In this document: positions 736 to 60,790 of the stretch, one piece after another
How the letters are laid out: every line of letters begins with the position of its first letter
Position numbering within the stretch: the first letter of the stretch is position 1
Source of the DNA: Diphasiastrum complanatum
Lineage: Eukaryota; Streptophyta; Lycopodiopsida; Lycopodiales; Lycopodiaceae
NCBI GenBank assembly: GCA_029204225.1
Contig: CM055106.1
Coordinates: forward strand, 51,095,325-51,159,324
DNA: 64,000 bases
Reading direction: 5' to 3'
Program-made: the position numbers and the translations under genes
The notes under the pieces: model-generated
What the model saw: the letters and a program-made list of their open reading frames with translations, nothing else
Databases searched by the model: none
Told to the model about the DNA's origin: nothing

Positions 736-1593
<858 letters not shown>

Positions 1594-2241
1594 GGGTCCA
1601 CGACCCAAAGTAGTGCCGGTCCCTTGACACTAGGCTGCAATTGTCATGAAGGGGCACTGTTGTTGGTTCATTTATTGCTGGGACATGGGTGCTTCAGGAA
1701 AAGCGTGGATAGAATTCACTTACATAAAACCTGAGGCTTTATTGATTGTTGATCAGCAAGAACCTAGACTTGCCAGATTTTCAATAATACACATAAGGGT
1801 CTGGTGGCCATATCAGATAACTTTGTTCATTGACAATTGGGTAGTTGAGGCATGCCATCGGAGGATCCCAAGATAAATCTTGCTGATATAATGGATCTTC
1901 ATAGATCGGCGAAACTGGTCCCAATATCATAGACTCCCCCAAATCATAATGTGGATATGACGTGTTTGCTTGATGCTCTTGTCTGTCTTGGTATTCGAAG
2001 TATGCATCAGTCTGACGACTTTTCTCAGCAGTCAATATCATAGATTTAGGAAAGGCTTTATCATTGTAGGTTCTGGTTCTTGCTGTACAATTGGCCATTT
2101 TGGGCTTGGATTCCCTAGACTTGGTCTTTGAAGAATGGATATACTCCGAATTGGCGTTGATTTGGGGGTCTGTTGAATTGTGGAACAATTAGACTTTGGT
2201 TGAATCTTGCTCATTGAGGGACAATCATCAACTTTAGTCTT
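1594..2241 (-). pseudogene. Gag C-terminal fragment trapped between two LTRs (copy 1)
   Basis: This 648-bp piece matches the 2836-3483 part of the element's own gag region. On the minus strand it holds an open frame of 135 codons (2188 to 1781) starting MFHNSTDPQINAN and ending PPDPYVYY. The frame is rich in Pro, Ser, Tyr and charged residues, with no recognised catalytic motif. The copy at 7998-8645 has exactly the same length; the two 135-residue translations differ at 8 positions. The right border is the junction TCTTCTCGAG at 2236-2247, where gag sequence meets LTR sequence through a shared CTC. The ATG is internal to gag, so an independent protein is unproven. Confidence 0.7.
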
Positions 2242-2305
2242 CTCGAGCGGCTACCCAAAGCTATTATATCCCAACGTAGGGAGAGAGAGAGAAGAGAGAG
2301 GGAGA

Positions 2306-2338
<33 letters not shown>

Positions 2339-2835
2339 AGAGATGGAGATTAAGAAACCAAGAGAGTTTTATTAGAATGAGAATGGAAGATGATACAATA
2401 CAAAGGAAATGGCTCCCTCTTATAGATTTTAGAGGTGAGCCTCCTTTACTCTCATTGGCCACTTCATTGGGGCAAGGATTCTAATCCAAGCCTTTCAAAA
2501 AAACACAACTTAAATCTAATGGTGCTAAGAAAGCACACGGGCACTCACATGATTCATGTGAGTTTTAAGTTGGGCCCTTTTAGCTTTTTTATTTGCAACT
2601 TGACTTAGGGCCTCTAATGTCATTTTAGAGTTTTAAGCCCCTAGTCTCTTATTCCTAGGAATTACAACTTGCTACTTGTGCTCATTGGTGGCTGGGCTTA
2701 TACACACAGAATGCTAGTGCCTTGCATTTATTATTCTACTATACTATGGCGGGGCCCACTAGGCAAGGCTTGGCCAACAGTATTTTAAGTTGTGGGACCC
2801 ACTTATTTAGTTGTATACATGCAATACCCACAACA
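2242..2835 (-). repeat. Truncated Ty3-type LTR (inner copy, 3' compound end)
   Basis: Same family as 717-1593 but starting at CTCGAG, so about 150 bp of the 3' (U5-side) end is missing and no primer site follows. The GA tract is short (2281-2342). Its 5' terminus TGTTGTGGG lies at 2835. The variant near the junction matches LTR 8646-9302 rather than the two full LTRs, which supports pairing of the two truncated copies. Confidence 0.78.
2281..2342. repeat. (GA)n microsatellite, short allele
   Basis: Interrupted GA tract of about 60 bp inside the truncated LTR, at the position homologous to the much longer tracts in the sister LTRs. Confidence 0.95.
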
Positions 2836-4861
2836 GGGTCCACGACCCAAAGCAGTGCCGGTCCCTCGGCACTATGCTGCAACTGTCGTGAAGGGGCACT
2901 GTTGTTGGTTCATTTATTGCTGGGACATGGGTGCTTCAGGAAAAGCGTGGATAGAATTCACTTACATAAGACCTGAGGCTTTATTGATTGTTGATCAGCA
3001 AGAACCTAGACTTGCCAGATTTTCAATAATACACATAAGGGTCTGGTGGCCATATCAGATAACTTTGTTCATTGACAATTGGGTAGTCGAGGCATGCCAT
3101 CGGAGGATCCCAAGATAAATCATGCTGATATAATGGATCTTCATAGATCGGCAAAACTGGTCCCAATATCATAAACTCCCCAAAATCATAATGTGGATAT
3201 GACGTGTTTGCTTGATGCTCTTGTCTATCCTAGTATTCGAAGTATGCATCAGCCTGACGACTTTCCTCAGCAGTCAATATCATAGATTTAGGACAAGGCT
3301 TTATCATTGTAGGTTCTGGTTCTTGCTGTACAATTGGCAATTTTGGGCTTGGATTCTCTGGATTTGGCCTTTGAAGAATGGATATACCCCGAATTGGCGT
3401 TGATTTGGAGGTCTGTTGAATTGTGGAACAATTAGACTTTGGTTGAATCTTGCTCATTGAGGGGCAATCATCAACTTTAGTCTTCTCTTGGTCATTGCAC
3501 TTTCCCATTGAAGGCTGCGTGATGGCACTTTTTCTTGGATCTTGTGTTGAATTGCCTTCAAGTTGCCCTGTTGATGCTAGTCCCCTTTGTAATTCATCAC
3601 TAAGAATTCTTTGCATTGACCGTGAAAAAAGCCCTGACAGAATCTGCTAGAGTTCCTCGGTTGCCCGTGTCTTGATTTCCTCGACAATCGTTGGCTTGAT
3701 GAATTCTACCATCTTTGTCTTCTGTGATGGTTCTATTTGTTTTCCCGAGGGTATCTTTGCGTACCTTGGAACTTTTGTCATATTTTCTTCTTCGTCACTT
3801 GCTTCATAACCCGGTGGCACTAAGATTTTTCTTTTGTAGTATGTTCGAGGTGGAAGGGTTACCACAGGTGCATGTCGGTCTACATAGGCCAAATGCCTCC
3901 TGGCTATTTATGAATTTCTCATTGGAAAATCTCGGCATGGATGATTAGCTCCGCATTGTGAACACAAGGGATCAAATGTTGACGGATCCCCTTGGTGTGG
4001 ACATTCAGCACGTCGGTGTTTTCCTCCGCATCCATAGCACCTAACTGAGTGTAGTATGCCATCACCTCTAAGTTGATAGGCATACACCGGTAACAAATTC
4101 CCCTTAGGATCTTCCACAAAATAGACTGGTAGGCTGTTATGGTCCTCCATTGAATTCGGTGACATGCAAGAGGATATAACCAAAACTTCTACCTTGCCAC
4201 TGTTTGTTGAAGAAACTCGTGATTTAGATGGATCAATCTGACATCCACCCTTCTGGTGAGCTCCTTGTTAGCTTGATTATGCTTCCGACCATTGAACCAC
4301 CAGATCTTGCTGTCGACAAGCCTGTTGCTCTGTATTTTGTCCTTTTAACAAGCGCGGATTCTTGATTGGACACTTGGTACTTGGATGATCTCCAAAGCAG
4401 AAGGTACATTCGTCCTTTTTAAGAAACTTAAGAGAGCAAGCATAAACTTGCTGACAGCTTAAAGTGCAAGGTTCTGGGTCTTCCGCTGCACTTGTTCTGC
4501 TTGACCTTGCTGCACTTTGTTGCCTTGCATGGGGTTCCATTCTTGTTGGATCATTGCTCGTTGTCGACCTTTGTTCCTCTGATTCCCCATATAGATAGGG
4601 AAAATCCTTCTTCCTGAGTGAGATTTCCATCTGGGCAGCATCCTTACAGAGTTGTACAGGTGACGCATAGGATGCTAATTCTGCCATACCAAATCTGATT
4701 CTTTTGGGCAGTCCAGCATAGTATTTTGCCATGACGATCTGTTCAGGAATCGGTGGATTACAATCTTTCACTAGATGATAGATCCGATAGGTGTAGTCTC
4801 GGATTGTTTCAGAAGGGAAATTTTTAAATTTCGATAATCCTACAAGGGCGGTCTCCATAGT
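2836..4861 (-). pseudogene. Ty3-type gag polyprotein, decayed, with three short zinc knuckles
   Basis: Reading minus from 4858, a 193-codon frame opens METALVGLSKFKNF and contains KYYAGLPKRIRFGMAEL, resembling the capsid region of plant Ty3 gag. Knuckles follow: CTFCFGDHPSTKC near 4400, CYGCGGKHRRAEC near 4020 and CSQCGANHP near 3950. The first two have CX2CX3HX4C spacing, one residue shorter than the usual CX2CX4HX4C. Beyond them come an acidic segment (GYEASDEEEN, about 3790) and a Gln/Ser/Pro-rich tail (3616 to 3230) that overlaps the piece duplicated in the compound LTRs. Stops and frame changes separate these blocks. Gag packages the element RNA. No protease or RT follows; an LTR comes directly after. 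Confidence 0.72.
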
Positions 4862-5564
4862 TCAGCACTATAATGTCGCAAAGTAGCTGGTTGGTGAATT
4901 GCTTAAAGATTTGCTCAATGACTCTGGTGTTCCAACTTTTTTTTTTTTTTTTGAAGTGGAAGAAGAAAAAGAAGAGGAGAAAGGAATCAAAAAAAGAGGG
5001 ATCCGTATGGATGTGAACAGAAACAGAAATGGATTTAACAGATAACCGCATTTAAAGTTACACTGTCAAGAGAATATGGAGATGGACAGAAGAGTGATGA
5101 ATGGTTGGGATGGATGGTGGTGGAAACTGATTTTTCTTGGTACTGATCAACTTGATCTGAGGTTCATTCACTTGGTTCAGTCCAGGGATGTTGGATCTTG
5201 ATGAATATTGTGACTACAACCTAGATTTGACAAGATCTAATCAGTTGTAGTTGGCTAATAGTGTGATTTTAGCCCCTTTTCTTGGTTCTTTGTGTTTTTT
5301 TTTTTTTTGTTGAGATTTATGCAAATCTGAGTGAATTTAACCTTCAACCTTCCTACAGTAGCTGTATATGGACCATTTCTAGACAATGTGAGTTCTACAA
5401 GAGTTCTTGATGGGCAGATTTGTCAGGATCTTGAAAAACCTCAGTTTTTTTGGCATTTTTTGGCACTTTTTCTTAGATATTTCTAAATCTAGCCATTGGA
5501 TCTTCACAAAATTTTTACAGTAGCTAGATCTTGGTCAGATTTATTTAAAAAAACTTTTGCAAAG

Positions 5565-6320
5565 GCTACTTTCCAGCAGATCTTAAAAAATCATGGAAAA
5601 AGTGCATTTTTTTGGGGTCTTTTTGCAAAATTTTAAGATTTTCTGGGAAAAAATCCTTGCTGACTGGTATGCACTTGTATCTCAGTCAGATTCAGCTGCT
5701 CACCAAGCTGCAAGAGTTACTTCGCAAAGAAACTCAAAAAATCTTGAAAAAAGTGCATTTTTTGTGGTTTTTTTGCAAAATTTTAAGCTTTTCTGAGAAC
5801 AAACCCTTACAGACTAGTATGAACTTGTATCTTAGTTAGATTCAGCTGTGCACCAAGCTACAAGAGGTAATTCCCAAGGAAACTCAAAAAATCCTGAAAA
5901 AAGTGCATTTTTTTGTGGTTTGTTTGCAAAATTTTAATATTTTCTGGGAACAAACCCTTGTAGACTAGCGTGCACTTGTATCTCAGTCAGATTAACTTGA
6001 TCACCAATCTGCAAGAGTCAAGAAAACTCAAAAAATCTTGAAAAAAGTGCATTCTTTTGTGGTTTTTTTGCAAAATTTTAAGCTTTTATGGGAACAAACC
6101 CTCGCAGACTGGTATGCACTTGTATCTCAATTAGATTCACCTGCTCACCAAGCTGTAAGAGCTACTTCCCTAGGAAACACCAGAAATCTTGAAAAAACTG
6201 CATTTATTTGTGGTTTTTTGGCCAAATTTTGAGATTTTCTGGGAACTAATCTTCGCAAGATGGTATGTGCTTGTATCTATGTCAGATTCACTTGCTTACC
6301 AAGCTGCGAGAGCTACTTCC
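5565..6320 (-). repeat. Five tandem copies of a ~150-bp leader repeat
   Basis: The marker AGTGCATTTTT (or close variant) occurs at about 5601, 5752, 5902, 6046 and 6197, giving periods of 151, 150, 144 and 151 bp. Each unit also carries a run like GCAAAATTTTAAG, then TGGTATGCACTTGTATCTCAG and CACCAAGCTGCAAGAG. Copies differ by scattered substitutions and small indels. Confidence 0.9.
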
Positions 6321-6645
6321 CAGAGAAACTCAAAAATTTGTTGTCTGAGAAGGTTCTAGGCCACTTTTTGTTCTTGGGAACCTTCACAAGGGCACTTTTT
6401 TGGGATCTAACTCTCGCAAACTTCTCTCTGTCCTTGTATTAGTGAGATAGAACTTTAGAGAGCTCTGCGAGGGTTAATTCCCAAGGAAACTCAAAAATTT
6501 GTTGTTTGAGAAGGTTCTAGGCCATTTTTTGCTCTTGGGAGCCTTCACAGGGGCACTTTTTTGGGGATCTAACTCTCGCAGACTTCTCTATGTCCTTGTC
6601 TCAGTGAGATGGAACTTTAGAGAGCTCTACGAAGGTTAGTTTTGA
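6321..6645 (-). repeat. Two tandem copies of a second ~160-bp leader repeat
   Basis: Two units share AACTCAAAAATTTGTTGT, GAAGGTTCTAGGCCA, GGGCACTTTTTTGGG, CTCTCGCA and TAGAGAGCTCT. They start near 6327 and 6486. The unit is a diverged relative of the preceding ~150-bp repeat, with the same CAAGGAAACTC lead-in. Confidence 0.8.
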
Positions 6646-6870
6646 GTTTTGAAAAAAAATTGATTTTTACAAGGGATTTTTGAATTTTTATGGGTTTTTC
6701 TCTGTTTTTTCAAAATCTATTGAGAAGTAACCTTTACAGGCTTCTATGCAGGTCTGGGACAGTACCCTAGAGCTGCTGCTAATCATGCGAAGGTTAGTTC
6801 TTGCTGGTTCTTGAGAAATCAAAATCTGATGGGATTTTGGCTCTCTTTTTCCCTCCAAAAACAGATTTTG

Positions 6871-6905
<35 letters not shown>

Positions 6906-7157
6906 CTGATTTTTATGGATTAATGAAAGGATTTGGTGCCTGGATCGGATCCTCCCACCCCACAATCTCTCCCTACAGTGCAAACAAACAAAAAAATCAC
7001 GAAAAAATGGAAAAAGCTAACACTACTCACACTATTCTACCCTTAAAATTCGATATTTTTTTTTGATGAAAAAGAATGATGAGAGAGAAGAAAGAGAGAG
7101 ATAGAGGAAAAGAGAAAGTGAGTAAGAAAACTATGCAACGAAAAGAGTGTGTGGCGC

Positions 7158-7175
7158 TCCTCGGCAACGGCGCCA
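7158..7175 (-). promoter_or_regulatory. Primer binding site complementary to tRNA-Asp
   Basis: The minus strand reads TGGCGCCGTTGCCGAGGA, one mismatch from TGGCGCCGTTGCCGGGGA, the complement of the plant tRNA-Asp 3' end. It sits one base from the LTR terminus at 7177, which fixes that LTR as the 5' LTR and the element's direction. Confidence 0.9.
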
Positions 7176-7176
7176 C

Positions 7177-7997
<821 letters not shown>

Positions 7998-8645
7998 GGG
8001 TCCATGACCCAAAGTAGTGTCGGTCCCTTGGCACTAGGCTGGAACTGTCGTGAAGGGGCACTGTTGTCGGTTCATTTATTGCTGGAACATGGGTGCTTAA
8101 GGAAAAGCGTGGATAGAATTCACTTACATAAAACCTGAGGCTTTATTGATTGTTGATCAGCAAGAACCTAGACTTGCCAGATTTTCAATAATACACATAA
8201 GGTTCTGGTGGCCATATCAGATAACCTTGTTCATTGACAATTGGGTAGTCGAGACATGCCATCGGAGGATCCCAAGATAAATCTTGCTGACATAATGGAT
8301 CTTCATAGATCGGCGAAACTGGTCCCAATATCATAGACTCCCCCAAATCATAATGTGGATATGACGTGTTTGCTTGATGCTCTTGTCTGTCTTGGTATTC
8401 GAAGTATGCATCAGCCTGATGACTTTTCTCAGCAGTCAATATCATAGATTTAGGAAAGGCTTTATCATTGTAGGTTCTGGTTCTTGCTGTACAATTGGCC
8501 ATTTTGGGCTTGGATTCCCTGGATTTGGCCTTTGAAGAATGGATATACCCCGAATTGGCGTTGATTTGGGGGTCTGTTGAATTGTGGAACAATTAGACTT
8601 TGGTTGAATCTTGCTCATTGAGGGACAATCATCAACTTTAGTCTT
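7998..8645 (-). pseudogene. Gag C-terminal fragment trapped between two LTRs (copy 2)
   Basis: Second copy of the 648-bp gag piece, with a 135-codon minus-strand frame (8592 to 8185, MFHNSTDPQINANSG...). The frame is open in both copies, so either the insertion is young or the frame is maintained; eight residue differences over 135 favour modest age. The left side meets the full LTR terminus, and the right side meets LTR sequence at the same TCTTCTCGAG junction as copy 1. No function is recognised. Confidence 0.7.
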
Positions 8646-9302
<657 letters not shown>

Positions 9303-12038: not shown

Positions 12039-12689
12039 TGTGAAAATTGTCAATATTTCCTAGCTAGTTTGAGGCCTAAATTGGCAATTTTTGTACATAG
12101 TTTTGAATCTAACCTTTCACACGTGTGAAAGAGGCCTAGATACTTTTATTTTAGTATATATTTCATATTGAAGAAGTCTCAAACTTTAGGACCTTTGAAA
12201 TGACACCAAAATCATGTTATTTAGAAATATAGACCAAAAATGACTATTTTAGACTACTGGTGTCCTAAAATTGGGTCCTAAGTTCTAGAGAGAGGAGAGA
12301 GAGTCATCTCTCTCACCTATATTAGGCTGAAATTCGTGGAGAATAGGTCGGAGAAACTTATTGTATTGTTGAGAGAGATCAATAGATCATTGTCACAGTT
12401 TCTTCCTCCATTGAGAGCATTGCTTTGTGTATTGTCTTCAAGCTATTGTGTATGATCTTAGGAGATTTCCAAAAGTGGTAGGCTATTGTAGTAAGGCTGT
12501 TTGCTGCTATTTTTGGCTGCCATTAGTACCTTTTATTAGTTTCTTTTGTCTCTTGAATGCTTTGTCAAGTTCATGTGTATCAAAGGTAGCATTAAGATGC
12601 TTTGCCATTTCTAGCTTTTGTAGCTTGTGAAAAGATCTTAGCCAAGTATTTTGGGAGTTTGGATCCATTCAAGATCCACTTTTTTTACA
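12039..12689 (+). repeat. Copia-type LTR, family B, 5' LTR
   Basis: Starts TGTGAAAATTGTCAA and ends ACTTTTTTTACA, followed at once by a tRNA-Met primer site. It shares its length with an inverted copy at 30160-30686, including TAGATACTTTTATTTTAG and CAAAATCATGTTA. The palindrome TTTCACACGTGTGAAA lies at 12115-12130. No internal gene follows: element D begins after 195 bp. Confidence 0.85.
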
Positions 12690-14005: not shown

Positions 14006-15790
14006 ATGGATTTCCAAGGGAAAGCCAGTCCTGTCATGGACAAGCTTGATGGAGCCAATTACCATCTGTGTGAATTTAAGATGAAAACTGTACTAATGGC
14101 AAAATAATTGTACGACGTTGTTACAGGTGCAGAAGAGAAACCCGAAGCGGACGATGCGACAATTATCAGATGGAAGCTGAAGAATGGAAAAGCTTTCGCG
14201 CTGATCATCCTCAACATCACGGATATCCAGATCGACCATGTATCTGAGGCTCAGACATCGAAAGAAGTCTGGGACATCTTGAGCACACTATATGAAGTGC
14301 AAGATATTGTTGGCTGATTCTGATGAATCTCCAAGATACTCAGACAGAGCAACTCAAGAGCACCTCTCACCTTAGACTGAGGAGGTCTTTGAGAAGACGA
14401 GACGAACGAAGACTGAAAATAGAGTATGAGAGCCGAGAAATGCTAGTTAGGAATGACAAGCAAGAACTGTGTAAGCCTCATGGTGAATCCCAGAAGATGG
14501 AATGACCAGTCGGAACTAGTATTTCTAGGCAAATGTAATAAATGCTAGTAGACCCCTCTTAAAGAAAGTAGAGTGAGCCACCTTTTGATGGTGACCTCTA
14601 GTGGAGAGCATTATTTCACTTGTAATTTGTGAAATGTAGAAATTCCACTAGGATGCCACCTAAGGAGCTCTCTTGCTTATTTAAGAGATCCCTCTTTGTG
14701 AAGAGGAGCTTTTAGCCTATTGTATCAACTCCATGCTGAAATGAGAAGAGCCTCCATGAGTTAGATGCATCCATTGAGCTCATTGATCATGATGGATTTC
14801 TTGAGTGATGCCCCTATGATCATGCCCTTCCATTCATATTGTGTGTGGTTGTGGATTTAGAGTGGATTAGTTTTCTTGTTTTCCTAGTTGTGGATTAGTT
14901 TTCATTTCTTGTTGTGAATTCATGTAGGAATCAGCATTCAAGTAAACTAAATTGGCTAGAAATGTGACATAAATGTTGCATACCCCCTAACATTCTAGTT
15001 CTTGATGTTCTTGGGATGTCCAAGAATCAAAAGACTGGTTGGTTTCTTGATTCTTGGACTTCTAACATGCTGTAGATTAGTTCTTGTTTCTTGTTTTGTC
15101 AATTTATGGAAGTATGGTAGCGCTTAGGATTTGATTTCAATTCATTTTGCAGCAAAGTAAAAGTAGAAATCCATCGTTTTTCAACTGAGCAGTAATGTAG
15201 ATCATTTGTTGAATGCATTGGCTTGTATTTTGGTTGATTATGCATGTGCATTCAGTTCAAGAGGGACCCATCTGGATGTCCTCTGATAGGTAGGACAATA
15301 TTACAATGATTATTAGCCCCTTCTGCCTAATCTGGGCCTTAAAACAAGAAAGATAATTTTAAGAAGTGCCCATAGTCTCTGTTGACAGGCTAAATACCAA
15401 GCTGTTAAAGTTGTAAAACAAACAACAAAAGAAGTAATGAAATAAAAAACTAGTTAATAGATTCTAAGACAGAGAATTTGTCAACAAATATAGCTTCCAA
15501 GCTACATCTCAGGAAGAAATTCTACTCCCTCAAGATGACGAATGGTGATTCTCTACAGAATCACATTAATCAGTTCAAGAACCTGCTAAGACAAATGGCC
15601 GATGTCAGATCTATCGTTGACGATCAAGATGCAGTAATGTAACTGCTTACAAGCTTGCCAAGCTCTTACGACAACTGGGTGATGATCGTCACGACTCATC
15701 CAAAATTGACTCTTTCGAGAGTCATTACTATGTTGTTGTAGGAAGACACGCGGAGGAACAAGCCACAAGTTTCTCAGCTGATTCTCACAC
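14006..15790 (+). pseudogene. Copia D gag, split by an LTR-like insertion
   Basis: Starts MDFQGKASPVMDKLDGANYH at 14006, a typical copia gag opening, with a TAA after LMAK. The frame continues with WKLKNGKAFALIILNI and KEVWDILSTLYEV to about 14307, is interrupted, and resumes near 15462 with TENLSTNIASKLHLRKKFYS, LTSLPSSYDNWVM and related gag signatures. Gag forms the capsid around the element RNA. Stops such as the TAA/TAG at AVM*LL show it is dead. Confidence 0.85.
14308..15461 (+). mobile_element. LTR-like repeat C inserted in copia D gag
   Basis: A ~1.15-kb segment starting TGTTGGCTGATTCTGATGAA interrupts gag. Its first ~570 bp match the minus strand of 31402 to about 30840, with the same TGTTGGCTG start, so it is a dispersed repeat, most simply a solo LTR. 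The right border is only approximate, and no clean target duplication was found (GATAT on the left, GATTC near the right). Confidence 0.6.
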
Positions 15791-20185: not shown

Positions 20186-21965
20186 GGAAAAATATTAGAC
20201 ACTACATTGCTTCAGGGGGCATGTGACTTTTCTAGCATCAGTAGGGAAGCATATGCAACAATGTTTAAGATGATAAAAGAGGCATTTGCACAGGTAAATA
20301 TTAAAAAGATTCCAATCCCACGACCATTTCATCTTTAAAAAAAAAAAGACATGTTAAACCAAGGTATGCAGACAATAGTTGGTAATCCATCTCATATCAA
20401 TGAAGTGTATTGCTCGAAAGGAGAAAGTCTAGCTTATACACAATTGTTATTGACATTCTCATTTGTAATACCATTAAAATTTATGATGAATGTTAGTAAC
20501 TGATTAATGTCAATAAATAAATTGATAGTTGTTCTCAAGCTAGATGAGTCTGAGATTATAAAAGGACAAAAAATGGAAAGAGTCAGTCTCACGATCATGA
20601 ATGGAGCACTTTCAAATTCAGAAGACTTAAAAGGCCTCAATTTTAGTGTTCAATCAGAAAATGATATCTGGTGGTTGGATTTTAGGTATAGCAGTTCCTT
20701 CGCATAATAAATAGGGATAATCATTTGAATATGGATTTCATTTGAGAAATCTTATCTGTGTTAATATTATGAGGCTAATCATGTTTTTGTATTCTCTTAT
20801 AGGTGATGAAAGAAGACCATGACCTTCTCTCATGGATATTTAATAGAACCTCATATCCTGCCACCATAAAAATAACCACCTGGAGGAAATTCCACCTAAT
20901 ATTCCTGGAATTGGCACTTTCAACATTGAATGGAATTTAGAAGGAGATCTGAAGACATTAAAATGTATGTTCAATGTATCTCATGACCCTTGTTTGTACT
21001 GCATGAAGACAACAAAAGACATGACAAGGAGTACAGAAATATCAAGAGATCGAGAAGATCCTAATTGGAAACCTGTACTGCCAATTTCTCTTCAGAATGT
21101 TCATATTTGTACATTGCATGCGAAGGTGCGTATTATAAAAAAAATAATATATCTTCACATCTTGTTTGCATGGAATTTCGCGAGCCAGAGGCATCTGCAA
21201 AGGAAGTTATTTCCAAATTAGAGAATGTGTTGTCCAAAGCAGACTTACATAAAGGCCATGTTAAAATAAAAAAAGATGACAAGCTATCAGGTAAAACAGG
21301 AAATATTCCATGCAAGCCGAACATTGAAGGATCCAAAGCTCGAAGATTTTTATCAAATTATTCTGGCAAACAATCTAAGATTCAATACACGGTTTGGAAA
21401 GAAATTATTGCAGCAACTCAAGATTTCGAAGAAGAAGGTTCTACTCGTATACACAAAGTAGAAGCTTGAAAAAAGTTAGACAACATGCTGAAACACTTGA
21501 GAAAAGATAAATTTTCAAATACTGATGTACAAATGATACTGAAACAACCAGTGAATTTGTGAATGTAGCTCAAAGTGCATGGGGTGTTGATCATATAACA
21601 CATTATATGGTAAGATTTCGATGCTACACTACAATAGACAAATACATGCAATTAGATTAGATACTTTTGGTACTAATTTAGATTATGTTTTTATGACATG
21701 CAGCACATATTACGACATCATTCAACATTCTTTGCAAGAAACAGTGGAAGTCTTAGCATATGGTCATCGCAAGGAATGGAAAAATCTCATTGGCAAGCAA
21801 GAGCGACATTTCATAAAAGTACACAACATGGCGGAACAAGCACAAAAACCAGCTATATACTGCAACTTTTTCAATGGTTTTACAGAAGAATCCAAATTTG
21901 TCATAATACAAAATCGACGGATTATAAAAAATTTCCAAAAGCATGCAAATTTATACAAGCCATAA
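20186..21965 (+). pseudogene. Gene a: spliced member of an uncharacterised multicopy eukaryotic family, broken
   Basis: A coding exon (GKILDTTLLQGACDFSS..., to CAG|GTAAAT at 20293) directly abuts the copia D LTR, so the 5' end is lost. Further blocks: LIVVLKLDESEIIKGQKME near 20525, ending at a GTATAG donor (about 20687); FNIEWNLEGDLKTLKCMF and CLYCMKTTKD near 20930-21010; WKPVLPISLQNVHICTLHAK to about 21125; then KIQYTVWKEIIAATQDFEEE. An intron at 21609-21703 (GTAAGA...ATGCAG) leads into SGSLSIWSSQGMEKSHWQAR and the stop. Shifts and a TGA disable it. From memory this order (substrate-like DGE block, C-x2-C, W...LP...H-LHA-RI, GMEKSH) resembles an abundant unnamed family seen in invertebrates and mucoromycote fungi, possibly transposase-related. 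That link needs a database search. Confidence 0.6.
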
Positions 21966-22033
21966 GGCAATAGACACACAATAAAATTTTGTATATTAAA
22001 TAAAAATATCTACAAAGTACAATTCAGCAGTAT
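21966..22033. terminator. Shared 3' region of convergent genes a and b
   Basis: Only 68 bp separate the two stop codons. On the plus strand CAATAAAATTTTG and TTAAATAAAAATATC provide AATAAA signals for gene a. Confidence 0.5.
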
Positions 22034-23640
22034 CTACTCTGCTTCCGATACTTTCTCCAATGAAAGTTGCAACTTAGAATCATGCGACAATTTTTTTCTT
22101 TTGTATGGATCCAACAACTCGTAGTTTTCATGCTTACTCAGATCAACATAAGCAACATACAATGCAAAATGAGATGATCTGAGCATGGAATTCACTGGTC
22201 CATATCCTAAAATTTTAAGTGCAATAATTTTCTTTACAAAAATTATTCTATGCACCTTATTATAATTATGTCCTCCAAGAAAATGAGATAGTGCCTTGAT
22301 TGCCATAATCATAGTCTCACCATGTTGATGAAATTTTGAATGAGCAACATTTATCTCATTATTCTTGAAGAACTTCAGATAGTGCCCCAGTGCATAATCT
22401 CTTGAAAATTCTCCATCAGAAGGTCTCTGCCCTCCTAGACGAATTGCGAAATCATCAAGGAAAATTGTTTTCTGAAATGATAAAAAACAAAGTAGGCTCC
22501 AGTATATAATTTGACATAATGAATCTACTAGTATATGATAAGATACAAAACTTTATGCATTCGACTTTGTCTTCCCTGATTACTGTTTCTCCATCAATAT
22601 GATGTCCACCTTTCGATGTCAATATTATTGGTGAATAGACAGTTGGTTGAGGAAAACCAAGTTGACTTTGGATTCTGAGAAACTCCTCCTCAAAAGGTAG
22701 ATCATCTTCTTTGTTGCGCATTTTCTCCATAGCCATTTTCCAGCAATCTTTCCCTGAAAAAAATTTATCATTATATACATCGTCAACACCAGGGAGAAGA
22801 TCATCAGCATCAAAATCAATTATATCCATAAATTCATCAAGCTCTTTGTTCAAAATGCAAAGAGTCTCAACTTCAATGAAATCAAAACGATCCAATATAT
22901 CCGATATTGTCAAAAAAGAATTATTATCTATATTATAAGTAGGCAAAGTGATCAAAGATTTATCAGAAGGAGAAGGGGTAGTGGGTGTTCTAGGGCCTAT
23001 AAACGATGCCCTATTTCGAGCAGGATCAAAATCTGAACAATCATCTAAATTAACGCTCGTATCAATAAAAGAAGTATCTATATCTACAATCTTTGACTTT
23101 TCAGACTTTGTACCACTAGAAGAAGCAGCTTCATAAGTGGAAGGGACAGCTTCCGAATCGTCAAAAAGAAAAAAAACAAATGTAGACTGAAAATCAACAA
23201 ATCTACATTTTTTATTGTGAATTGGGCACTCATCTACGGACTTGAAATCATGATGTAACTTGGTGAACATTCTGTCAAGCTTAGCTTTATAGATATGCTT
23301 GTCGAGTGCCACTAGGTCCTGATAATAAATCATGTCTTTATTTAGAGATCTGAATAACAGAGTACTGAGCAGAGATTTAAATCTGAGATATATCTCAGAA
23401 AATGTCTCCACACCAAGGCGCTTGGTAATAGAAGGAAGAATAAAAAGAAAAGAAAAAAAGAGAGATTTGAAATACTCCAAACTATCAGTAATACCAAATT
23501 CATGAAAAAAAGAAAGCAAACTAATATCAAAATTAGATATTTTAAACAAAAAGTACAACTGTAAATTTCCAAATATCGCTCTTAGGCACAAACTGCAGGT
23601 CAAGAAAAATCTCAAGGAAATGTGCGCTCGAAAGAGATAT
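22034..23640 (-). CDS. Gene b: apparently intact spliced gene of unknown function
   Basis: A long minus-strand frame (23615 down to 22584) joins without a stop to a second exon (22471 to 22034) through a 112-nt intron with donor ACA|GTAATC and acceptor ATCATTTCAG; both junctions are in phase 0. The join reads HHIDGET then KTIFLDDFAIRLGG. Total is about 490 codons if translation starts at 23615; the ATG at 23332 (MIYYQDLVALDKHIYKAKL) is an equally possible start, because the first ~95 residues are Phe/Leu-rich. The middle is Ser/Thr/Asp-rich (DIDTSFIDTSVNLDDCSDFD, RTPTTPSPSDKS) and acidic (MDIIDFDADDLLPGVDD), and the end is basic (YKRKKLSHDSK). No known domain is recognised. It is divergent from gene c and shares its promoter region. 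Confidence 0.6.
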
Positions 23641-23722
23641 TAGAAATTAGAGTATCGGATTTGAGCGCGTGAACAAAGAGTAGACAAGAAAGGAGATGTA
23701 AGACGCGCTTGAATGCGATACC
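23622..23722 (-). promoter_or_regulatory. 5' leader of gene b with three copies of a 19-bp motif
   Basis: In gene sense: GGTATCGCATTCAAGCGCG (23722 to 23704), an inverted copy whose plus strand reads AGTATCGGATTTGAGCGCG (23651-23669), and ATATCTCTTTCGAGCGCAC (23640 to 23622). The same three-copy arrangement occurs in the leader of gene c. Confidence 0.7.
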
Positions 23723-23850
23723 GGACCAAGCAGTATCGGATCCAGACGCAAGTTAGTCAACAGAGGGTAATCAGTGCAAATGGCACGTTTGAAATTGATA
23801 TTCGACCAAGAAATCAAAAATTTGCATGAAAATTTGAACCGAAAATGACC

Positions 23851-24130
23851 TATTTATAAAAAAAAATTTGCACGTGTGGAGGAGTTACGAAGGAACACGT
23901 GTCGATGTATGATTGATCAGAATTAATACGTTGTATAGACAATGATTGATCTGACATCTGTCACGTGCGAGAATGACACGCGTCAAAAAGAGATTTGTGC
24001 ACGTGTTCCAACCCACGTGGCCTCATGATGAGGTCATCATTGCCAGTACGGACATTCCACATGGAACAATCAGATGACGACACATGTCTTCCGTCGTCTT
24101 TTCACGCGTGCAAAAATTTTGTATATATAA
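23851..24130. promoter_or_regulatory. Bidirectional promoter between genes b and c with five G-boxes
   Basis: A minus-strand TATAAATA at 23858-23851 faces gene b and a plus-strand TATATATAA at 24122-24130 faces gene c. Between them are five CACGTG palindromes at 23871, 23896, 23962, 24000 and 24014. In plants CACGTG is the core site of bZIP (G-box/ABRE) and bHLH factors, so light- or stress-linked control is plausible but unproven. Confidence 0.75.
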
Positions 24131-24180
24131 GTCCTCGGACTTTTCATTTTTTTTTGTAGAATTTTCAGTTTTCGCTCTCA

Positions 24181-24346
24181 ATATCGCTCTCAAGCGTGCC
24201 CTTACATCGTTTAATTGTCTGCCTTCTCACAGTGCACTCGAAACCGATACCACTGTTAGTCCAATATCATTGTGCATCTCATTTCTTAAAATATTCTGTG
24301 TATATCTTGCACTCGCAATTCAGTTCTGGTATCGATCTCAAGCCCC
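24181..24346 (+). promoter_or_regulatory. 5' leader of gene c with three copies of the 19-bp motif
   Basis: ATATCGCTCTCAAGCGTGC (24181), an inverted copy GCACTCGAAACCGATACC (24234-24251), and GGTATCGATCTCAAGCCCC (24328). Orientation +,-,+ and the first spacing of 53 bp are identical to those in the gene b leader. Confidence 0.7.
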
Positions 24347-24427
24347 CTCTTCTTGCAAATTTTTTTGTTTTCATTCCCTACATTTTTGATCAAACTTTTC
24401 TTTGTTAATTTTCTTCTTCTCAAAATG

Positions 24428-25431
24428 ATGGCAAGGACCAAATTCACTACCCATGCCATAACCACTATACAACCATCCCGTGCCCGTGTTCCCCCTGGAA
24501 CTGGCCGTAGACGTGACAGAAACCAGGTCTGTCTGAGGAAGATTAGGAAATTCCAAAGATCAACTGAACTGTTGAGCCCTAGAGCTCCTTTCGGCCGATC
24601 TGTAAGGAATGTCACTCTGTCACTTGGGATAAATGTTTGTTTTGCTATGACAGCCATGCAGGTCTTATAGGGTGCTGCAGAAAATTTTTTGTCCTAGTTT
24701 TTTGAGGATACCTGTCTTTTGGCAGTGCATGGTAAGCGTGTCACCATCATGCCAAAAGATTTCGTCATTCTCAAAAGACTTTGGGACCGTTATTCTGGTC
24801 TGCATGTTGATAACTCCAGCACCTCCAAAGACCTACCTCTGGATAGAACCAACTTGCCGACTACCTCTAGGAGTTAGAGGAAGCAGTCTGTCCCCAAGAA
24901 GACTGGATCTCGAAGGCCAGATGTTTTCCTTCCTCCTAGAGTTATCCCGGCCAAGAGACTCCGGATCGTCTTGAGCTTTAAGTCAGATGCTGGAGAATCT
25001 GATTCAGATCGAGAATCATCACCCCTTCTTCCTATTGTTATTCGTCCAACTCCTCAGCGGGTTTCTTCACCAAAAGTGTTGATTACCCAAAAGGAGCTCG
25101 ACAAATATTGTATCTACTTCTTTTTCTGCTCCTGTACATAATCTTTTTGTCAGAATTCCATACGATCCTGCCCAAGTATATTTTGATTCTGACCATTATA
25201 ACTAGTTCAAGGCCTACCTAGCTAATAAAATTGATCTTCTCAGCAATTTTTTTGATTTTTTTCTTCCAGATTCATGTAAAAGCTTTAGATTAGGTCCCAA
25301 ATTATGTGCCGAGCTAAAAGATAACACTTCAGAAATTCTAGATGTAATAGTAGAAGCCGGAGGATGTTTTTTGCAGAATAGTATTAGTGCCGATTCCCAT
25401 GGTATAGTTTTTGTTGTTAGTGAGCAATAAA
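24428..25431 (+). pseudogene. Gene c: divergent histone H3 fold with C-terminal extension, disabled
   Basis: Opens MARTKFTTHAITT; the ARTK start with Lys4 is kept, but no ARKS motif equivalent to Lys9 or Lys27 is visible. The fold follows: LRKIRKFQRSTELL (alpha-N), PFGRSVRN (alpha-1), then FFEDTCLLAVHGKRVTIMPK and D (alpha-2/alpha-3), all aligning with H3 in order from about residue 37 to 110. After the fold come about 110 Ser/Pro/Arg-rich residues (LPPRVIPAKRLRIVLSFKSD). A one-base frameshift near 25110 then leads to VRIPYDPAQVYFDSDHYN and LGPKLCAELKDNTSEILDVI, ending at TAA. In-frame TAG codons occur at 24668, 24695, 24875 and 25203; the first aligns with a Gln of H3, consistent with CAG-to-TAG change. 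Canonical H3 stops soon after the fold, so this tail is unusual. Its role could be a specialised nucleosome histone; CENH3 identity is not supported by tail or loop features. Confidence 0.75.
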
Positions 25432-25690
25432 GGCAAAAGAAGCCAATTTTGAGAAGGCTGTATATTTTATCGAATGCAGTCCTGTGACAAAATTTTATAT
25501 GATTCCATATGAAAATAAATAAGGATTGATGTTTTGTTTTTGTTGCTTTAATCTGGATTGTTGCATGTGGCATTGCTTTAGTAAGTAAGGATTGCTTTCA
25601 TAAGTATGGATTTATCCATATCTGTATTTTGGTTGTTGTAGTCGGCATTGCAGCCTGAACATTCTTTCTGTAAAGATAAATAAGAAGGGA
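25424..25690 (+). terminator. 3' region of gene c
   Basis: GAGCAATAAAGG overlaps the stop codon region, and AAATAAATAAGG follows near 25515, offering poly(A) signals. No gene is seen before the hairpin at 25693. Confidence 0.45.
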
Positions 25691-25692
25691 GT

Positions 25693-25750
25693 ATCAAATT
25701 TTCTATGTGTAAAATTAAACTCAGCTATAAATACACATAGAGAATTTGAT
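25693..25750 (+). promoter_or_regulatory. 18-bp inverted repeat enclosing the TATA box of gene d
   Basis: ATCAAATTTTCTATGTGT (25693-25710) and ACACATAGAGAATTTGAT (25733-25750) pair at 17 of 18 positions. TATAAATA (25726-25733) lies in the 22-bp loop, overlapping the right arm by one base. Gene d's first ATG is 10 bp downstream of the right arm. Confidence 0.75.
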
Positions 25751-25760
25751 TCTCTACTTC

Positions 25761-26501
25761 ATGATGTCGTTCGGGAAATACCGACAACGACAACCTCAAT
25801 TGGAGAGATAACCATTAGATCTCTCAGGGTATATTCAATTTATCTCTGATATGCATGTATTCTTTTTTTAGTTCAAATCTATCATCATATTATAAATAAA
25901 TTTTCTATCATAATATTACTAATTTTTGTTCTATATATGCAGTGTGTACATCAAAAGGACACTTTTAGTTGTGCATTGTTCGTTCTGTACAATACGAAGC
26001 TATTTTTTGAGTGGTATAGTTTACAAGTGGATGTAGATATTGAAAATGTAATATTCTGCTCATTTGTAGTTCCTTTCATTTTGATTCATATTTTTTTACT
26101 ATCATTGTTTGTAATTTGCTGATTCTCATGTTTTGTGATGACAGTTCACTCTTGAGCTGTATACTCCTGATGATGTATATAGATTTTGGCAAGAGTTGGT
26201 CAGAACCTATGCCCAGAATGGTGTAAGCGTTGCACCTGAGATCGAGGGCCCTCAAAAACAAGCTGCTCCTGTCTTAACAGCCTTTCAGGTTGCTCAGGAT
26301 GCAGATCTTATTATATATGATCAAAAAAGAATAGAAGTCCTTTCTAATACAGAGGAAGGCTCTATTATAGTAGAGAGTCCTCTTGTCTTAAAAGGCATTG
26401 AGGCCCTTCCCAAAATAGAGGAAGACGAGATTATAGAAGGAGTTGTTCCCTTATCAGTTCCTAATACTGATAAAAAAAATATAACTAAATTGACTGAATA
26501 G
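25761..26501 (+). pseudogene. Gene d: three-exon gene of unknown function with a single stop
   Basis: Exon 1 25761-25856 (MMSFGKYRQRQPQLER...SGYIQFISDMH), intron 25857-25942 (GTATTC...ATGCAG), exon 2 25943-26047 (CVHQKDTFSCALFVLYNTKL...DIEN), intron 26048-26144 (GTAATA...GACAG), exon 3 26145-26501 (FTLELYTPDDVYRFWQELVR... to TAG). All junctions are phase 0, giving about 185 residues. The only defect seen is a TAA at 25809, which a C-to-T change of CAA would produce. The C-terminal half is acidic (EEGSIIVESPL, IEEDEIIEGVVP). No domain is recognised. It lies downstream of gene c on the same strand with its own TATA box. Confidence 0.6.
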
Positions 26502-26970
26502 AGATCTATTTGTAAATAGAGATACATTAAAAAAAAAAAGGATACAAACATTTTACATGTAAACAACCCGTTTATGGATTTTTTTTAATTGATATCAATA
26601 TAGATTCTTACAATCAGGTTGTGTCCATAGTGTAATACTGGAATGCAATTTTCTATATTGATAAAAAGACATGATGATTGACATGTATTTGCTGATAGTG
26701 AATATCAATGTTCTTCCATAAGTTGGATTGTTTCGCCAATATCTCTACATTTGATTGAGTTTACCATTGAAAATGAATCTAAAGTTTGAAAGTACATCAT
26801 CTTGTAGGAGCAATAGTTCCTGTCTGATGTAATTTAGACTTCAATCTTCTTCCACCTCAACACACATCAAAACGACATCATTGTATATAATTTCAATATT
26901 TTTTTGTTTTGAATGTCCACTAGCTTCCAAGTCTCGATCGAGTGGCACCCATTTACCTTTATTTTTTTTT
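26502..26970. other. Intergenic region between convergent genes d and e
   Basis: AT-rich, with no reading frame of note. Confidence 0.4.
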
Positions 26971-27935
26971 TCATCTTTGATAATGGAAGCATAAGCTCAA
27001 CATTTGTTTTTCAATTTGATAACGGAAGCACATGGAAGACATTTTAATTCTGCATTCTATTTTCCCATCTGATTTTTTCTCCCAGCCTTCATCCATAAGT
27101 TCAGGTAATAAACTATTTGATAAATTTTTGTATACAAACATCGTTGGGGTTTTGTGTACATTGACACTTGAAAAGAAATCCACAAATATATCCAAGGAAA
27201 TAAACCAACTCAATTTGACTGTTTTTGATCCCACGCTCATTTTTAATGAATTTTTTACATCATTATATATCTTGCAATGAAATGATTCTGAAACTATAGC
27301 ATTTGGTGCAATCCATTCATCACTTTCAAAACTAGGTAATGGAATTGGTACTATTTGTCCAAAATTTTCTTTTGTATAAGGAATGTGCATTGATTTATGA
27401 AAAAAAATCTCACTATCAACTAGATCTTTTGCAGTTCTACCTTGATATTGCAGCTGTCCAATATCAGTGTGAATAACATCTAACACACCTGCTAAAGATC
27501 CACTCGGCTGTCATTCATTTATATTGGATGGATATAAATCTGCAAGAGAAAAATGATCAGATTAGCAAGTTTACTATTAGATATTTATGAATGACAAAAA
27601 TCTAATATCAATACTCACAGTGGTTTTTTTTTGTGATCTTGACGGTTGAATGCTTGCACATTTATCTCTGAATGCATATATACATGTTAAACTATAATTT
27701 CAGAAATAGATTTTCCTCCTGATGATGTTCTGAAATCCAAAATTCTGGCCTTCCAATAAGATCGAAATGATAGTTTTGACATTTCCCTTTTTCGAAATGT
27801 TCCTGTTGATGATGGATGCATCAAAACCCAAGAGATTTTTGAATATTTTCTTGACACCCATAATCCATTATCATCTGTCTCATTGAATAGAAGCACAGAG
27901 TCGATTGAGGAGCACGACTTTCTTGATGGCGCCAT
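26971..27935 (-). pseudogene. Gene e: spliced gene of unknown function, broken
   Basis: Minus strand, ATG at 27935 (MAPSRKSCSSIDSVLLFNET), then KREMSKLSFRSYWKARILDF to about 27700. A frameshift near 27690 continues into FRDKCASIQPSRSQKKTT, which ends at a good donor, ACT|GTGAGT (27618). The intron runs 27618-27540 and ends CTCTTGCAG. Exon 2 reads DLYPSNINE, a TGA, then GSLAGVLDVIHTDIGQLQYQ, KDLVDSEIFFHKSMHIPYTK and VKLSWFISLDIFVDFF, ending at 26971. The basic N-terminus could bind nucleic acid, but no known domain is recognised. Decay (one shift, one TGA) is similar to that of gene a. Confidence 0.5.
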
Positions 27936-28069
27936 TCGTAATGTGCATGCAAAAATATGAAACAATGAACTATGAATCTGAAAATTTGCGTAGACAAAAA
28001 TCCATGAATATGAGAAAATGTGTTGGCGTAAATTTGAAATATTGATCTATTTGGCGTCATGAATTAACT

Positions 28070-28420
28070 CTGGTTAACCTTGTTAACCATAATTTGACAA
28101 TGCATATACATTAATGGTACATCAATTTTCTCATCTCAACCATCTGTCATATTCATTTTCAATATTTTTGGGTCTTTTCGGGTAGTGATGAGCTGGAAGG
28201 ACAGGCCTCATCAACCAATTGCATTTCCACATGTTGCCTGACAAAACAAAAATATTTTAAAAGTTTTTATTTTATTTATATTTGGAAAACTCTACATTAC
28301 GTAAAACCCCGATTTCAAGGTTTCAATTGGTCCACATGGCAACGAAAATAAGAAAAAAAATAAAAAAAACATCTTTTTCAAAGGCCCTCTTCGGGCTCTA
28401 AGTTTCTCTAATGTATATCA
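28070..28420. other. Spacer with a small GGTTAA hairpin
   Basis: GGTTAACCTTGTTAACC at 28072-28088 is a short perfect hairpin. The rest is AT-rich with nothing recognised. Confidence 0.4.
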
Positions 28421-30160: not shown

Positions 30161-30686
30161 CATGCTACCTTTGATACACATGAACTTGACAAAGCATTCA
30201 TAAGACAAAAGAAACTAATAAAAGGTACTAATGGTAGCCAAAAATAATAGCAAATGGGCCTTACTACCTAAGACCATACACAATAGCTTGAAGACAATAC
30301 ACAAAGCAATGCTCTCAATGGAGGAAGAAACTGTGACAATGATCTTTTGATCTCTCTCAACAATACAATAAGTCTCTCCAACCTATTCTCCACGAATTTT
30401 AGCCTAATATAGTGAGAGAGATGACTCTCTCTCCTCTCTCTAGAACTTAGGACCCAATTTTAGGGCAGTGGCCTAAAATAGTTAATTTTGGCTTATATGT
30501 CCACGTAACATGATTTTGGTGTCATTTCAAAGGTCCTGAAGTTTGAGACTTCTTAAATATGAAATATATACTAAAATAAAAGTATCTAGGCCTCTTTCAC
30601 ACGTGTGAAAGGTTAGATCCAAAACTATGTACAAAAATTGCCAATTTAGGCCTCAAACTAGCTAGGAAATGTTGACAATTTTCACA
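30160..30686 (-). repeat. Copia-type LTR, family B, inverted and truncated
   Basis: Reverse complement matches 12039-12580 from TGTGAAAATTGTCAAC onward, including TTTCACACGTGTGAAA at 30595-30610. The 3' part is lost at 30160. Upstream on the minus strand lies AAGTTGAAGAGGGAG, a fitting polypurine tract, so this is a 3' LTR remnant. Confidence 0.85.
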
Positions 30687-30839: not shown

Positions 30840-31402
30840 TGCTTCACTCTACAGTCCACAACCACACACAAAGGGAGGGAAGGGCAAGATCATAAATGTA
30901 TCACTCAAGAAACAAGCATGATCAAGGAGCTCAATGGATGAACCAAACTCGTGAAGGCTCTTCTCATTTCAGCATGGAGTTGATACAATTCACAAAAAGC
31001 TCCTCTACTCAAAGAGGGAGTCTCTTAAATAAGCAAGAGAGCTCCTTAGGTGGCATCCTAGTGAAATTTCCACATTTCACAAATTACAAGTGGAATAATG
31101 CTCTCCACTAGAGGTCACCATCAAAAGGTGGCTCACTCTACTTTCTTTAAGAGGGGTCTACCTGCATTTATTACATTTTCCTAGAAATACTAGTTCCTAC
31201 ATGGTCATTCCATCTTCCGGGATTCACCAGGAGGCTTACATAGTTCTTGCTTGTCATTCCTAACTAGCATTTCTCGGCTCTTATACTCAGCTCTCAGTCT
31301 TTGTTCGTCTCGTCATCTCAGAGACCTCCTCGGTCTAAGGTGAGAGGTGCTCTTGAGTTGCTCTGTCTGAGTACCTTGGGGATTCGTCAGAATCAGCCAA
31401 CA
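30840..31402 (-). repeat. LTR-like repeat C, inverted copy
   Basis: Reverse complement starts TGTTGGCTGATTCTGACGAA at 31402 and matches 14308-14880 through GTACTCAGACAGAGCAACTC, CACCTCTCACCTTAG, TATTTAAGAGA and the CCCTTCC region, then diverges. Confidence 0.7.
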
Positions 31403-31621
31403 AGAAAGAATAGTTTATATCTCCACTGTGTGGAGTTTACAAGATGGCTAAACGCAGAATCACAAGACTAGTTAACGCTAATCAACTAATCAGTTACTCT
31501 TTATCATTGCCACTCGTTTCATCTTGGCATGAAGTCTACGACTCCAAGCCCGTTAAGCTGCCAGTTGGCAGCGTGAAAGATTCTCCTTCGTGTGTTTCGT
31601 TTTCTTTTGTTCTTTTCGTTT

Positions 31622-36522: not shown

Positions 36523-37354
36523 TGTGAAAAATGCAAAAATAAGCTTGGTAGAGGCCAAAAATCTTGTATATAGATAAACACACATGTGTCGAGCCTGTTC
36601 CCACGTCTGAAAATAGTGTACTTGTCATGTATCATAATCATATAGGTTGTACATATGATTTAATTCAAGTTCTAGTGGCTAAAAAGGCCAAAAACTAGTT
36701 TTCTAGACATATGACACATGGCATCAATCTATTGCTTTCATGAGCCACATCCTTTGGTTAGGTGTCACCTCCCATGTGTAGAGGACAGCTCACATGTGTG
36801 GAATAAGCTGAAGTAGACTAATTTTGACTTCTAGAATATTTTCAAGTAGATCTCCATATAGAAGGAAAATGGACCAAAAGTGCTCAAAAGAGAAGGTTTT
36901 GTCCAAGTGTCAGTTTTGCATGATGAATCATCATATGACAAAGCACCTTCACACATGTGGGATCAAAGGGATGATCAGTACCATGAGCTCTCACTTATTG
37001 TATAAATAGAGCCACATTTGGCCATAATCAATGTGAGACACCAATCTTGGTTTTGGAAGCAATTTTGAGTGATTCTCTCCATTTGTCTATATTTGTTTTG
37101 ATTGTTTTGAGGTTCTATCAATGTGTACTTGATTTTCAGGTTGGAGTCCGTACTCAAACAGTGTTTCACATGTGTGAAACCAGAAAGTACACTTACCTTT
37201 AATTAATGATTGTTCTTGTTAGGATTTTGTGTCTAGAATTGATCTAGATTGATCTTAATCTGAAGTAGATTGATAGATCAAGTAATCTGACAACCAATCC
37301 CTCTTGAGGATCAGATTAGGATCCACTCTTGGTCCTTTTTGTACTTTTTGCACA
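36523..37354 (+). repeat. 5' LTR of element G
   Basis: 832 bp, TGTG...CACA. Contains TTTCACATGTGTGAAA at 37164-37179. Compared with the 3' LTR it has about 14 extra bases near 36760 (GTCACCTCCC region) and scattered transitions. Confidence 0.93.
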
Positions 37355-37366
37355 TGGTATCAGAGC
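37355..37366 (+). promoter_or_regulatory. tRNA-Met primer binding site of element G
   Basis: TGGTATCAGAGC directly after the LTR terminus GCACA. Confidence 0.95.
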
Positions 37367-40273: not shown

Positions 40274-41091
40274 TGTGAAAAATGCAAAAATAAGCTTGGT
40301 AGAGGCCAAAAATCTTGTATATAGATAAACACATATGTGTGGAGCCTGTTTCCACGTGTGAAAATAGTGTACTTGTCATGTACCATAATCATATAGGTTG
40401 TACATATGATTTAATTCAAGTTCTAGTGGCTAAAAAGGCCATAAACTAGTTTTCTAGACATATGACACATGGCATCAATCTATTGCTTGCATGAGCCACA
40501 TCCTTTGGTTATGTGTAGAGGACAGCTCACATGTGTGGAATAAGCTGAAGTAGACGAATTTTGACTTCTAGAAGATTTTCAAGTAGATCTCCATATAGAA
40601 GGAAAATGGACCAAAAGTGCTCAAAAGAGAAGGTTTTGTCCAAGTGTCAGTTTTGCATGATGAATCATCATATGACAAAGCACCTTCACACATGTGGGAT
40701 CAAAGGGATGATCAGTACCATGAGCTCCCACTTATTGTATATATAGAGCCACATTTGGCCATAATCAATGTGAGACACCAATCTTGGTTTTGGAAGCAAT
40801 TTTGAGTGATTCTCTCCATTTGTCTACATTTGTTTTGATTGTTTTGAGGTTCTATCAATGTGTACTTGATTTTCAGGTTGGAGTCCGTACTCAGACAGTG
40901 TTTCACACGTGTGAAACCAGAAAGTACACCTACCTTCAATTAATGATTGTTCTTGTTAGGATTTTGTGTCTAGAATTGATCTAGATTGATCTTAATCTGA
41001 AGTAGATTGATATATCAAGTAATCTGACAACCAATCCCTCTTGAGGATCAGATTAGGATCCACTCTTGGTCCTTTTTGTACTTTTTGCACA
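40274..41091 (+). repeat. 3' LTR of element G
   Basis: 818 bp, contains TTTCACACGTGTGAAA at 40901-40916, ends TTTTTGCACA before AATTC. Confidence 0.93.
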
Positions 41092-60356: not shown

Positions 60357-60790
60357 CTTCTTTATAAAAAAATCTAGGATCTAACACAGATGTTGATCCA
60401 CCCTATGAAATCTAGCAACAGATGTGAGAACAAATTCTCAATATAGAAAATCAATCTATCTTGAATTTGGATCTTGCTTCAGTCACAAAAGAAGAAGCAC
60501 ATGCAAGCAAGAAGTCTATCTCTTCCACAAGTTTCAATGTACTGATAAACTCTCTAGGAACTTACTTTCAACTCAAACATAGTAATATGTGTGAACTGAA
60601 AAGAATAAGACCTCAGAACACTCACTTCTATCCAATTCTACTTGATTGATAGTTAAAATCGATGAAAATGGTGAAAAAGACATATGTGTGCTGAGTTTGG
60701 CATATCCCACGAGTTGAGTACCCTCTCAAACTCTCTGATTGTCTAAAACTCTTATAAAAACAAATCAAATTGATTTAGAAACAATAGAAA

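Follow-up and report, generated by a model that had tools for sequence, protein, structure and literature searches.

What is the compact five-gene cluster that lies at positions 20186-27935 of a 64,000-nucleotide stretch of Diphasiastrum complanatum DNA (the window; C15:51095325-51159324 of a 1.74-Gb genome in 5176 contigs), and do its genes belong together? An initial annotation of the window had proposed five genes, a(+), b(-), c(+), d(+) and e(-), one of them with a histone H3 fold, and had suggested that they form one mobile element, such as a large DNA transposon. We found that the cluster is one mobile unit. With a probability of roughly 0.78, we read it as a degraded member of a high-copy DNA transposon family that belongs to the CACTA/Mirage/Chapaev/Transib (CMCT) clade and may be a separate lineage within it; in this element, a encodes the transposase and e likely its partner. 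The surprising parts are the presumed histone cargo and the apparent absence of a target duplication.

A mobile unit with shared ends

Coding blocks of all five genes were found where they had been predicted; c and d possibly form a single gene. Stops and frameshifts occur in the blocks and are fewest in b, in agreement with the similar decay described for every gene except b. Fourteen loci outside the window were fetched, every one picked because gene c is present there, and 13 of them keep neighbouring pieces of a-e in the order of the window, with deletions and insertions; L031 is the sole rearranged locus. The outcome that the initial annotation had named as counting against a mobile unit, genes that never occur together elsewhere, was therefore not observed, and the shared borders described below agree with its proposal of a transposon. 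Since all loci were selected on c, the sample says nothing of how often a or e stands alone. The histone stretch of c has at least 40 matches in the genome at 87-100% identity, the window itself included (40 of 1258 first-look candidates were scored), and thus the cluster is beyond chance. Conserved single-copy host genes were rejected as an explanation because the copy number is high. The copies vary in their content: an additional fragment of c lies inverted in copy 0, copy 2 consists of an inverted pair, copies 1 and 6 represent a single duplicated segment (98% identity across 6 kb), and several copies retain just two of the genes a-e.

Element copies have ends in common, which start with CATTAGAG. 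The left ends meet at CATTAGAGAAAATATGGGCCC in L009, L011, L022, L023, L029 and L032, which gives four independent left ends, as L022 duplicates L011, and L023 and L029 are one insertion. The right ends meet in the window (28413), in L010, in L020 and, in a decayed form, in L029; those of L013 and L014 are altered, and none was found for L032 in the DNA fetched rightward of it. The right terminal inverted repeat of the window copy (28382-28413, minus strand) reads CATTAGAGAAACTTAGAGCCCGAAGAGGGCCT, and the two ends pair as inverted repeats with 26 of 32 positions identical. The termini, CATTAG...CTAATG, have the 5'-CA..TG-3' form of the CMCT clade.

With these borders, the unit continues 478 bases beyond the end first assigned to it, and the window holds 8228 bp (20186-28413, plus strand) of a left-truncated transposon copy that shares its borders with copies in L009-L032. 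Together with a left part of 1368 bp (L023:5579-6946), the full element is approximately 9.6 kb long. The loss of the left end had been recognised correctly, but its ascription to a copia element, copia D, cutting the 5' end of a needs amending: the missing 1.37 kb occurs at no place in the window, so this copy is not simply split by copia D. The initial annotation had also advised looking for common borders, terminal inverted repeats and target duplications; the first two were found, whereas no duplication was seen at the two insertions with readable empty sites. One of them, copy 0, lies inside a copia element with an empty relative in the window, and its flanks abut exactly, with zero duplicated bases. 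The other, L029, lies inside a gypsy pol gene, where the joined flanks continue in frame, ICVNLKALNKVM*MDHFPLPFTDSILDRLARA (read by eye), with a spacing that agrees with what we take to be that of this pol region. The right flank of the window copy starts at a site known from L013, and its left flank is lost.

Two further observations concern the ends. Diverged end-like sequences at L027:2299 and L028:6362 (both on the minus strand) may belong to other subfamilies or to short non-autonomous relatives. At L028:5734-6362, the left part of copy 9 halts 128 bases before the common left end, and a second end-like sequence lies 628 bases farther out.

The transposase and its likely partner

Gene a (20186-21965, plus strand, 5' part missing) encodes a putative DDE transposase, as judged from motifs and predicted fold. 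All five motifs are present in the window copy: KLDE at 20537, EGDLK at 20940, C(2)C at 20988, H(4)H at 21099 and the E in QGMEKSH at 21770. Among 35 aligned relatives of a, C(2)C is found in 34 and H(4)H in all 35, as is typical of CMCT transposases, which have C(2)C and H(3-4)H motifs before the last E. A structure predicted for one relative of a, of modest quality (mean predicted local distance difference test score, pLDDT, 67), has a RAG1-core-like fold and matches RAG1, BbRAGL and Transib; the list of folds compared does not contain families such as EnSpm/CACTA and so does not speak against them, and RAG1 and Transib may only be the nearest solved folds. On this model, the transposase resembles the RAG1/Transib/CACTA group.

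Gene e (26971-27935, minus strand) is convergent to a and is the second gene conserved in a sister family; it has four relatives at E <= 0.01. A copy of the sister family (L020/L034) is about 3.8 kb long, shares 65-69% DNA identity with the main family where alignable, and carries a and e tail to tail between ends of the same type as those of the main family. It aligns to 20535-21530 and 26969-27884 of the window, with just 34 bases between the two blocks. At first sight this looks like a minimal element made of a and e, but such a reading was dropped: compared with its relatives, the copy is missing both the final exon of a and the terminal part of e, so it is an internal deletion. No duplication is evident around it, but its junction is uncertain.

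Between the two families, the ratio of nonsynonymous to synonymous rates (dN/dS) of a and e was 0.11-0.32 in the 13 of 23 comparisons with computable dS (0.11-0.22 for e); in the other 10, dS was saturated. These low values indicate that a and e were under selection while the families diverged. Within the family, rate ratios, all computed with duplicated segments retained, were 0.43 for a (in a set that may include the sister copy), and 2.11 and 0.75 for the first and second exons of e. Such within-family ratios mostly reflect the near-neutral decay of dead copies.

The histone-like gene and its neighbours

The region between the convergent genes a and e holds b, c and d. Gene c (24425 to ~25522, plus strand) comprises an H3-like domain (24425 to ~24800), a linker and a C-terminal stretch, its end being placed from the frame of other copies. 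The histone fold foreseen for it was borne out by Pfam Histone, with E 1.5e-6 for the window copy and E 1.7e-25 for copy L012; on the same stretch of L012, CENP-T_C lies barely above its own cut-off. Compared with solved chains, c has an H3 histone fold by sequence, with E 2.4e-21 for H3.1 and E 1.3e-20 for CENP-A, scores so nearly equal that the H3 subtype is not separable. The tail, MMARTKSTA[H/R]AIT, is shorter than that of H3. When numbered from the ARTK start, all 16 stretches retain K4, and position 9 holds A in 15 of them and S in one (among these, L022 duplicates L012, and L013 forms a pair with L014). Within-family rate ratios are 0.78 for the H3 part, 0.87 for the linker and 0.67 for the end of c. 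On C7, at 64.61 Mb and 65.03 Mb (L004, L005, L007, L013, L014), a head-to-head inverted pair of c approximately 1.54 kb apart occurs twice, with 0.42 Mb between the two.

Gene d (~25690-26501, plus strand), possibly the 3' half of c, was delimited by frames and a sub-threshold Pfam match; its exons include a weak Ulp1/C48 peptidase-like part that scores 15.1-17.8 bits, below the Peptidase_C48 cut-off of 20.7 for the catalytic domain. Joining c and d neither extended nor improved this match, and a PDB sequence search with the joined product gave no result. The within-family ratio of d is 1.08. Gene b (~22037-23400, minus strand; two exons by reading) has a single match at E <= 0.01 among 5.8 billion proteins, a hypothetical protein of Diphasiastrum complanatum with 73% identity. 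A search of the PDB by sequence with its second exon found nothing. Its ratios are 0.65 for exon 1 and 0.34 for exon 2 (10 pairs, two copies being duplicates). In the stretches scanned, a, b, d and e all stayed below the Pfam cut-offs.

Weighing the alternatives

Several observations weigh against a CMCT transposon with transposase, partner and cargo. By sequence, neither Pfam nor a PDB profile search connected gene a with RAG1 or any transposase family, so its class link comes from the predicted fold and the motifs. The E motif is present in 1 of the 35 aligned relatives, mostly fragments that end before E. The structure model of e (pLDDT 34) is too weak to be usable, also with regard to a RAG2-like beta-propeller, and the between-family dN/dS is rough because every computed dS is at least 1.05. 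The left ends begin with CATTAG, and the right ends with CATTAG or decayed forms of it, not with the CAC of a recombination signal sequence heptamer. Neither of the two insertions that could be read (copy 0 and L029), a small sample, has a single duplicated target base; the duplications of 2-5 bp that CMCT elements are described as creating (PMC12730594) were not seen at these sites, and neither were those of 5 bp typical of Transib and RAG. As for the cargo, the sister copy, being internally deleted, is silent on whether b, c and d previously stood between a and e, and the within-family drift of c (0.78) and d (1.08) is near-neutral.

The last point leads to the likeliest alternative, in which b, c and d derive from host genes that were captured and do nothing for the element. 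Besides this drift, it is favoured by a fungal hAT transposon reported to have captured and amplified H3, with copies that became inactivated (PMC6710886). However, the H3 part of c is far from canonical H3, yet its fold is recognisable and its frame largely kept across copies, which argues for a past period as a coding gene, and the ratio of 0.34 for exon 2 of b also speaks against idleness. We consider idle capture somewhat unlikely, and b, c and d may instead be accessory cargo.

A true Transib/RAG-like element, with e as the counterpart of RAG2, would explain the predicted fold of a and the convergence of a and e, which recalls RAG1L and RAG2L in ProtoRAG (PMC9435367); the same source reports plants to have 39 Transib-like proteins. 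Against this stand the ends, as RAG-like ends are described as starting with CAC, the missing 5-bp duplication, the three genes (b, c, d) that separate a from e, and the lack of a Pfam match or a usable model for e; the fold match itself may only point to the nearest solved structures. Altogether, such an element is improbable. Descent from a large DNA virus that had integrated into the genome was rejected as highly improbable. Some viruses encode histones, and a compact multi-gene block including one would suit a block of viral genes, but the unit has a transposase and defined inverted-repeat ends. When 2.9 million viral contigs were scanned, each time with two to six short patterns, no relative was confirmed for a, e or b, and no viral structure matched a at E <= 0.001, the best being a hAT-named pandoravirus protein at E 2.8e-3.

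Surroundings of the element

The embedding among retrotransposons noted initially was evident on both sides: the 3' long terminal repeat (LTR) of a copia element ends at 20185, directly left of the transposon copy, and the right flank is, by reading, copia gag-like. Retrotransposon-like fragments at 12039-12592 and 30162-30686, and at 14307-14798 and 30910-31403, are inverted across the cluster, possibly owing to a past inversion that removed the left end. Elsewhere in the window, one repeat of 0.6-0.8 kb with the look of a recent LTR occurs at 36523-37355, 40274-41091 and 60790-61622 (96-99% alike, one inverted), a 300-base repeat occurs four times within 1078-9086 (95-98% alike, two pairs about 1.25-1.3 kb apart), and a long simple-sequence tract lies within 7030-7530.

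Proposed mechanism and significance

A hypothesis regarding the life cycle of the CMCT-like transposon may be put forward, starting from its shared ends, inverted repeats and ordered copies, the histone identity of c, the constraint that a and e show between the two families, and the RAG1/Transib-like fold predicted for a relative of a. The product of a, perhaps together with that of e, would bind the CATTAGAG ends and excise the element, which would then reinsert without a target duplication, perhaps via blunt joining. Genes b, c and d would travel as accessory cargo. The c protein could pair with H4 and join nucleosomes, where its K9-less tail would resist H3K9 methylation and so sustain expression of the element; we infer for c a possible role as a counter-agent of silencing. 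The complete picture, a plant transposon with its own K9-less H3 variant that is loaded on or near the element and blocks H3K9 methylation, and with a RAG1-type transposase that inserts without target duplication, is nevertheless distinctly unlikely.

With the CMCT assignment, the clade of transposons that gave rise to RAG1 would gain a family from lycophytes. The absence of target duplication, if upheld in a larger sample, would uncouple the RAG1-type fold from the staggered insertion that usually goes with it. A plant transposon that encodes a histone enables a direct test of silencing evasion by a self-supplied nucleosome part; if true, the transposon would resist silencing by substituting the histone itself.

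Comparison with known systems

The CMCT clade is described as including EnSpm/CACTA, Mirage, Chapaev, Transib, Plavaka, ESTA and Lanisha, with a DDE transposase that has C(2)C and H(4)H between the second D and E, and with 5'-CA..TG-3' termini (PMC12730594), features that the present element resembles. It differs in its CATTAG termini, in the lack of target duplication at two sites, in a histone rather than a dioxygenase as putative cargo, and in its plant host. With ProtoRAG, RAG-like elements and Transib, it shares the predicted transposase fold and the convergent a and e, but has no CAC ends and no 5-bp duplication, and it has three intervening genes and an e unlike RAG2. Insertion without target duplication is reported for the Spy group of PHIS, which uses AAATTT and is kin to PIF/Harbinger (PMC4482050); the two sites found here do not fit AAATTT. 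VANDAL elements offer an example of a plant transposon protein, VANC, that counters silencing, as c may do; VANC is described as sequence-specific (PMC5735166, PMC10398659), whereas c encodes a histone-like protein.

Among the titles and abstracts listed from the open-access literature, searched with narrow terms and without preprints, no plant transposon carrying a histone was named, while a fungal one was. This is the hAT of Pseudocercospora fijiensis, a DNA transposon of ~9.5 kb that is reported to have multiplied an H3-like gene several hundredfold, into hundreds of copies, with a hAT transposase, 8-bp duplications and copies inactivated by repeat-induced point mutation (PMC6710886). Here, the H3 is divergent and fused to further sequence, and the transposon is of another class. 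Fungal CMCT members, in turn, are described as carrying TET/JBP dioxygenases as epigenetic cargo (PMC12730594). By analogy, these fungal TET/JBP transposons may be seen as a parallel to the lycophyte element, and the H3-amplifying hAT as a precedent for its histone cargo.
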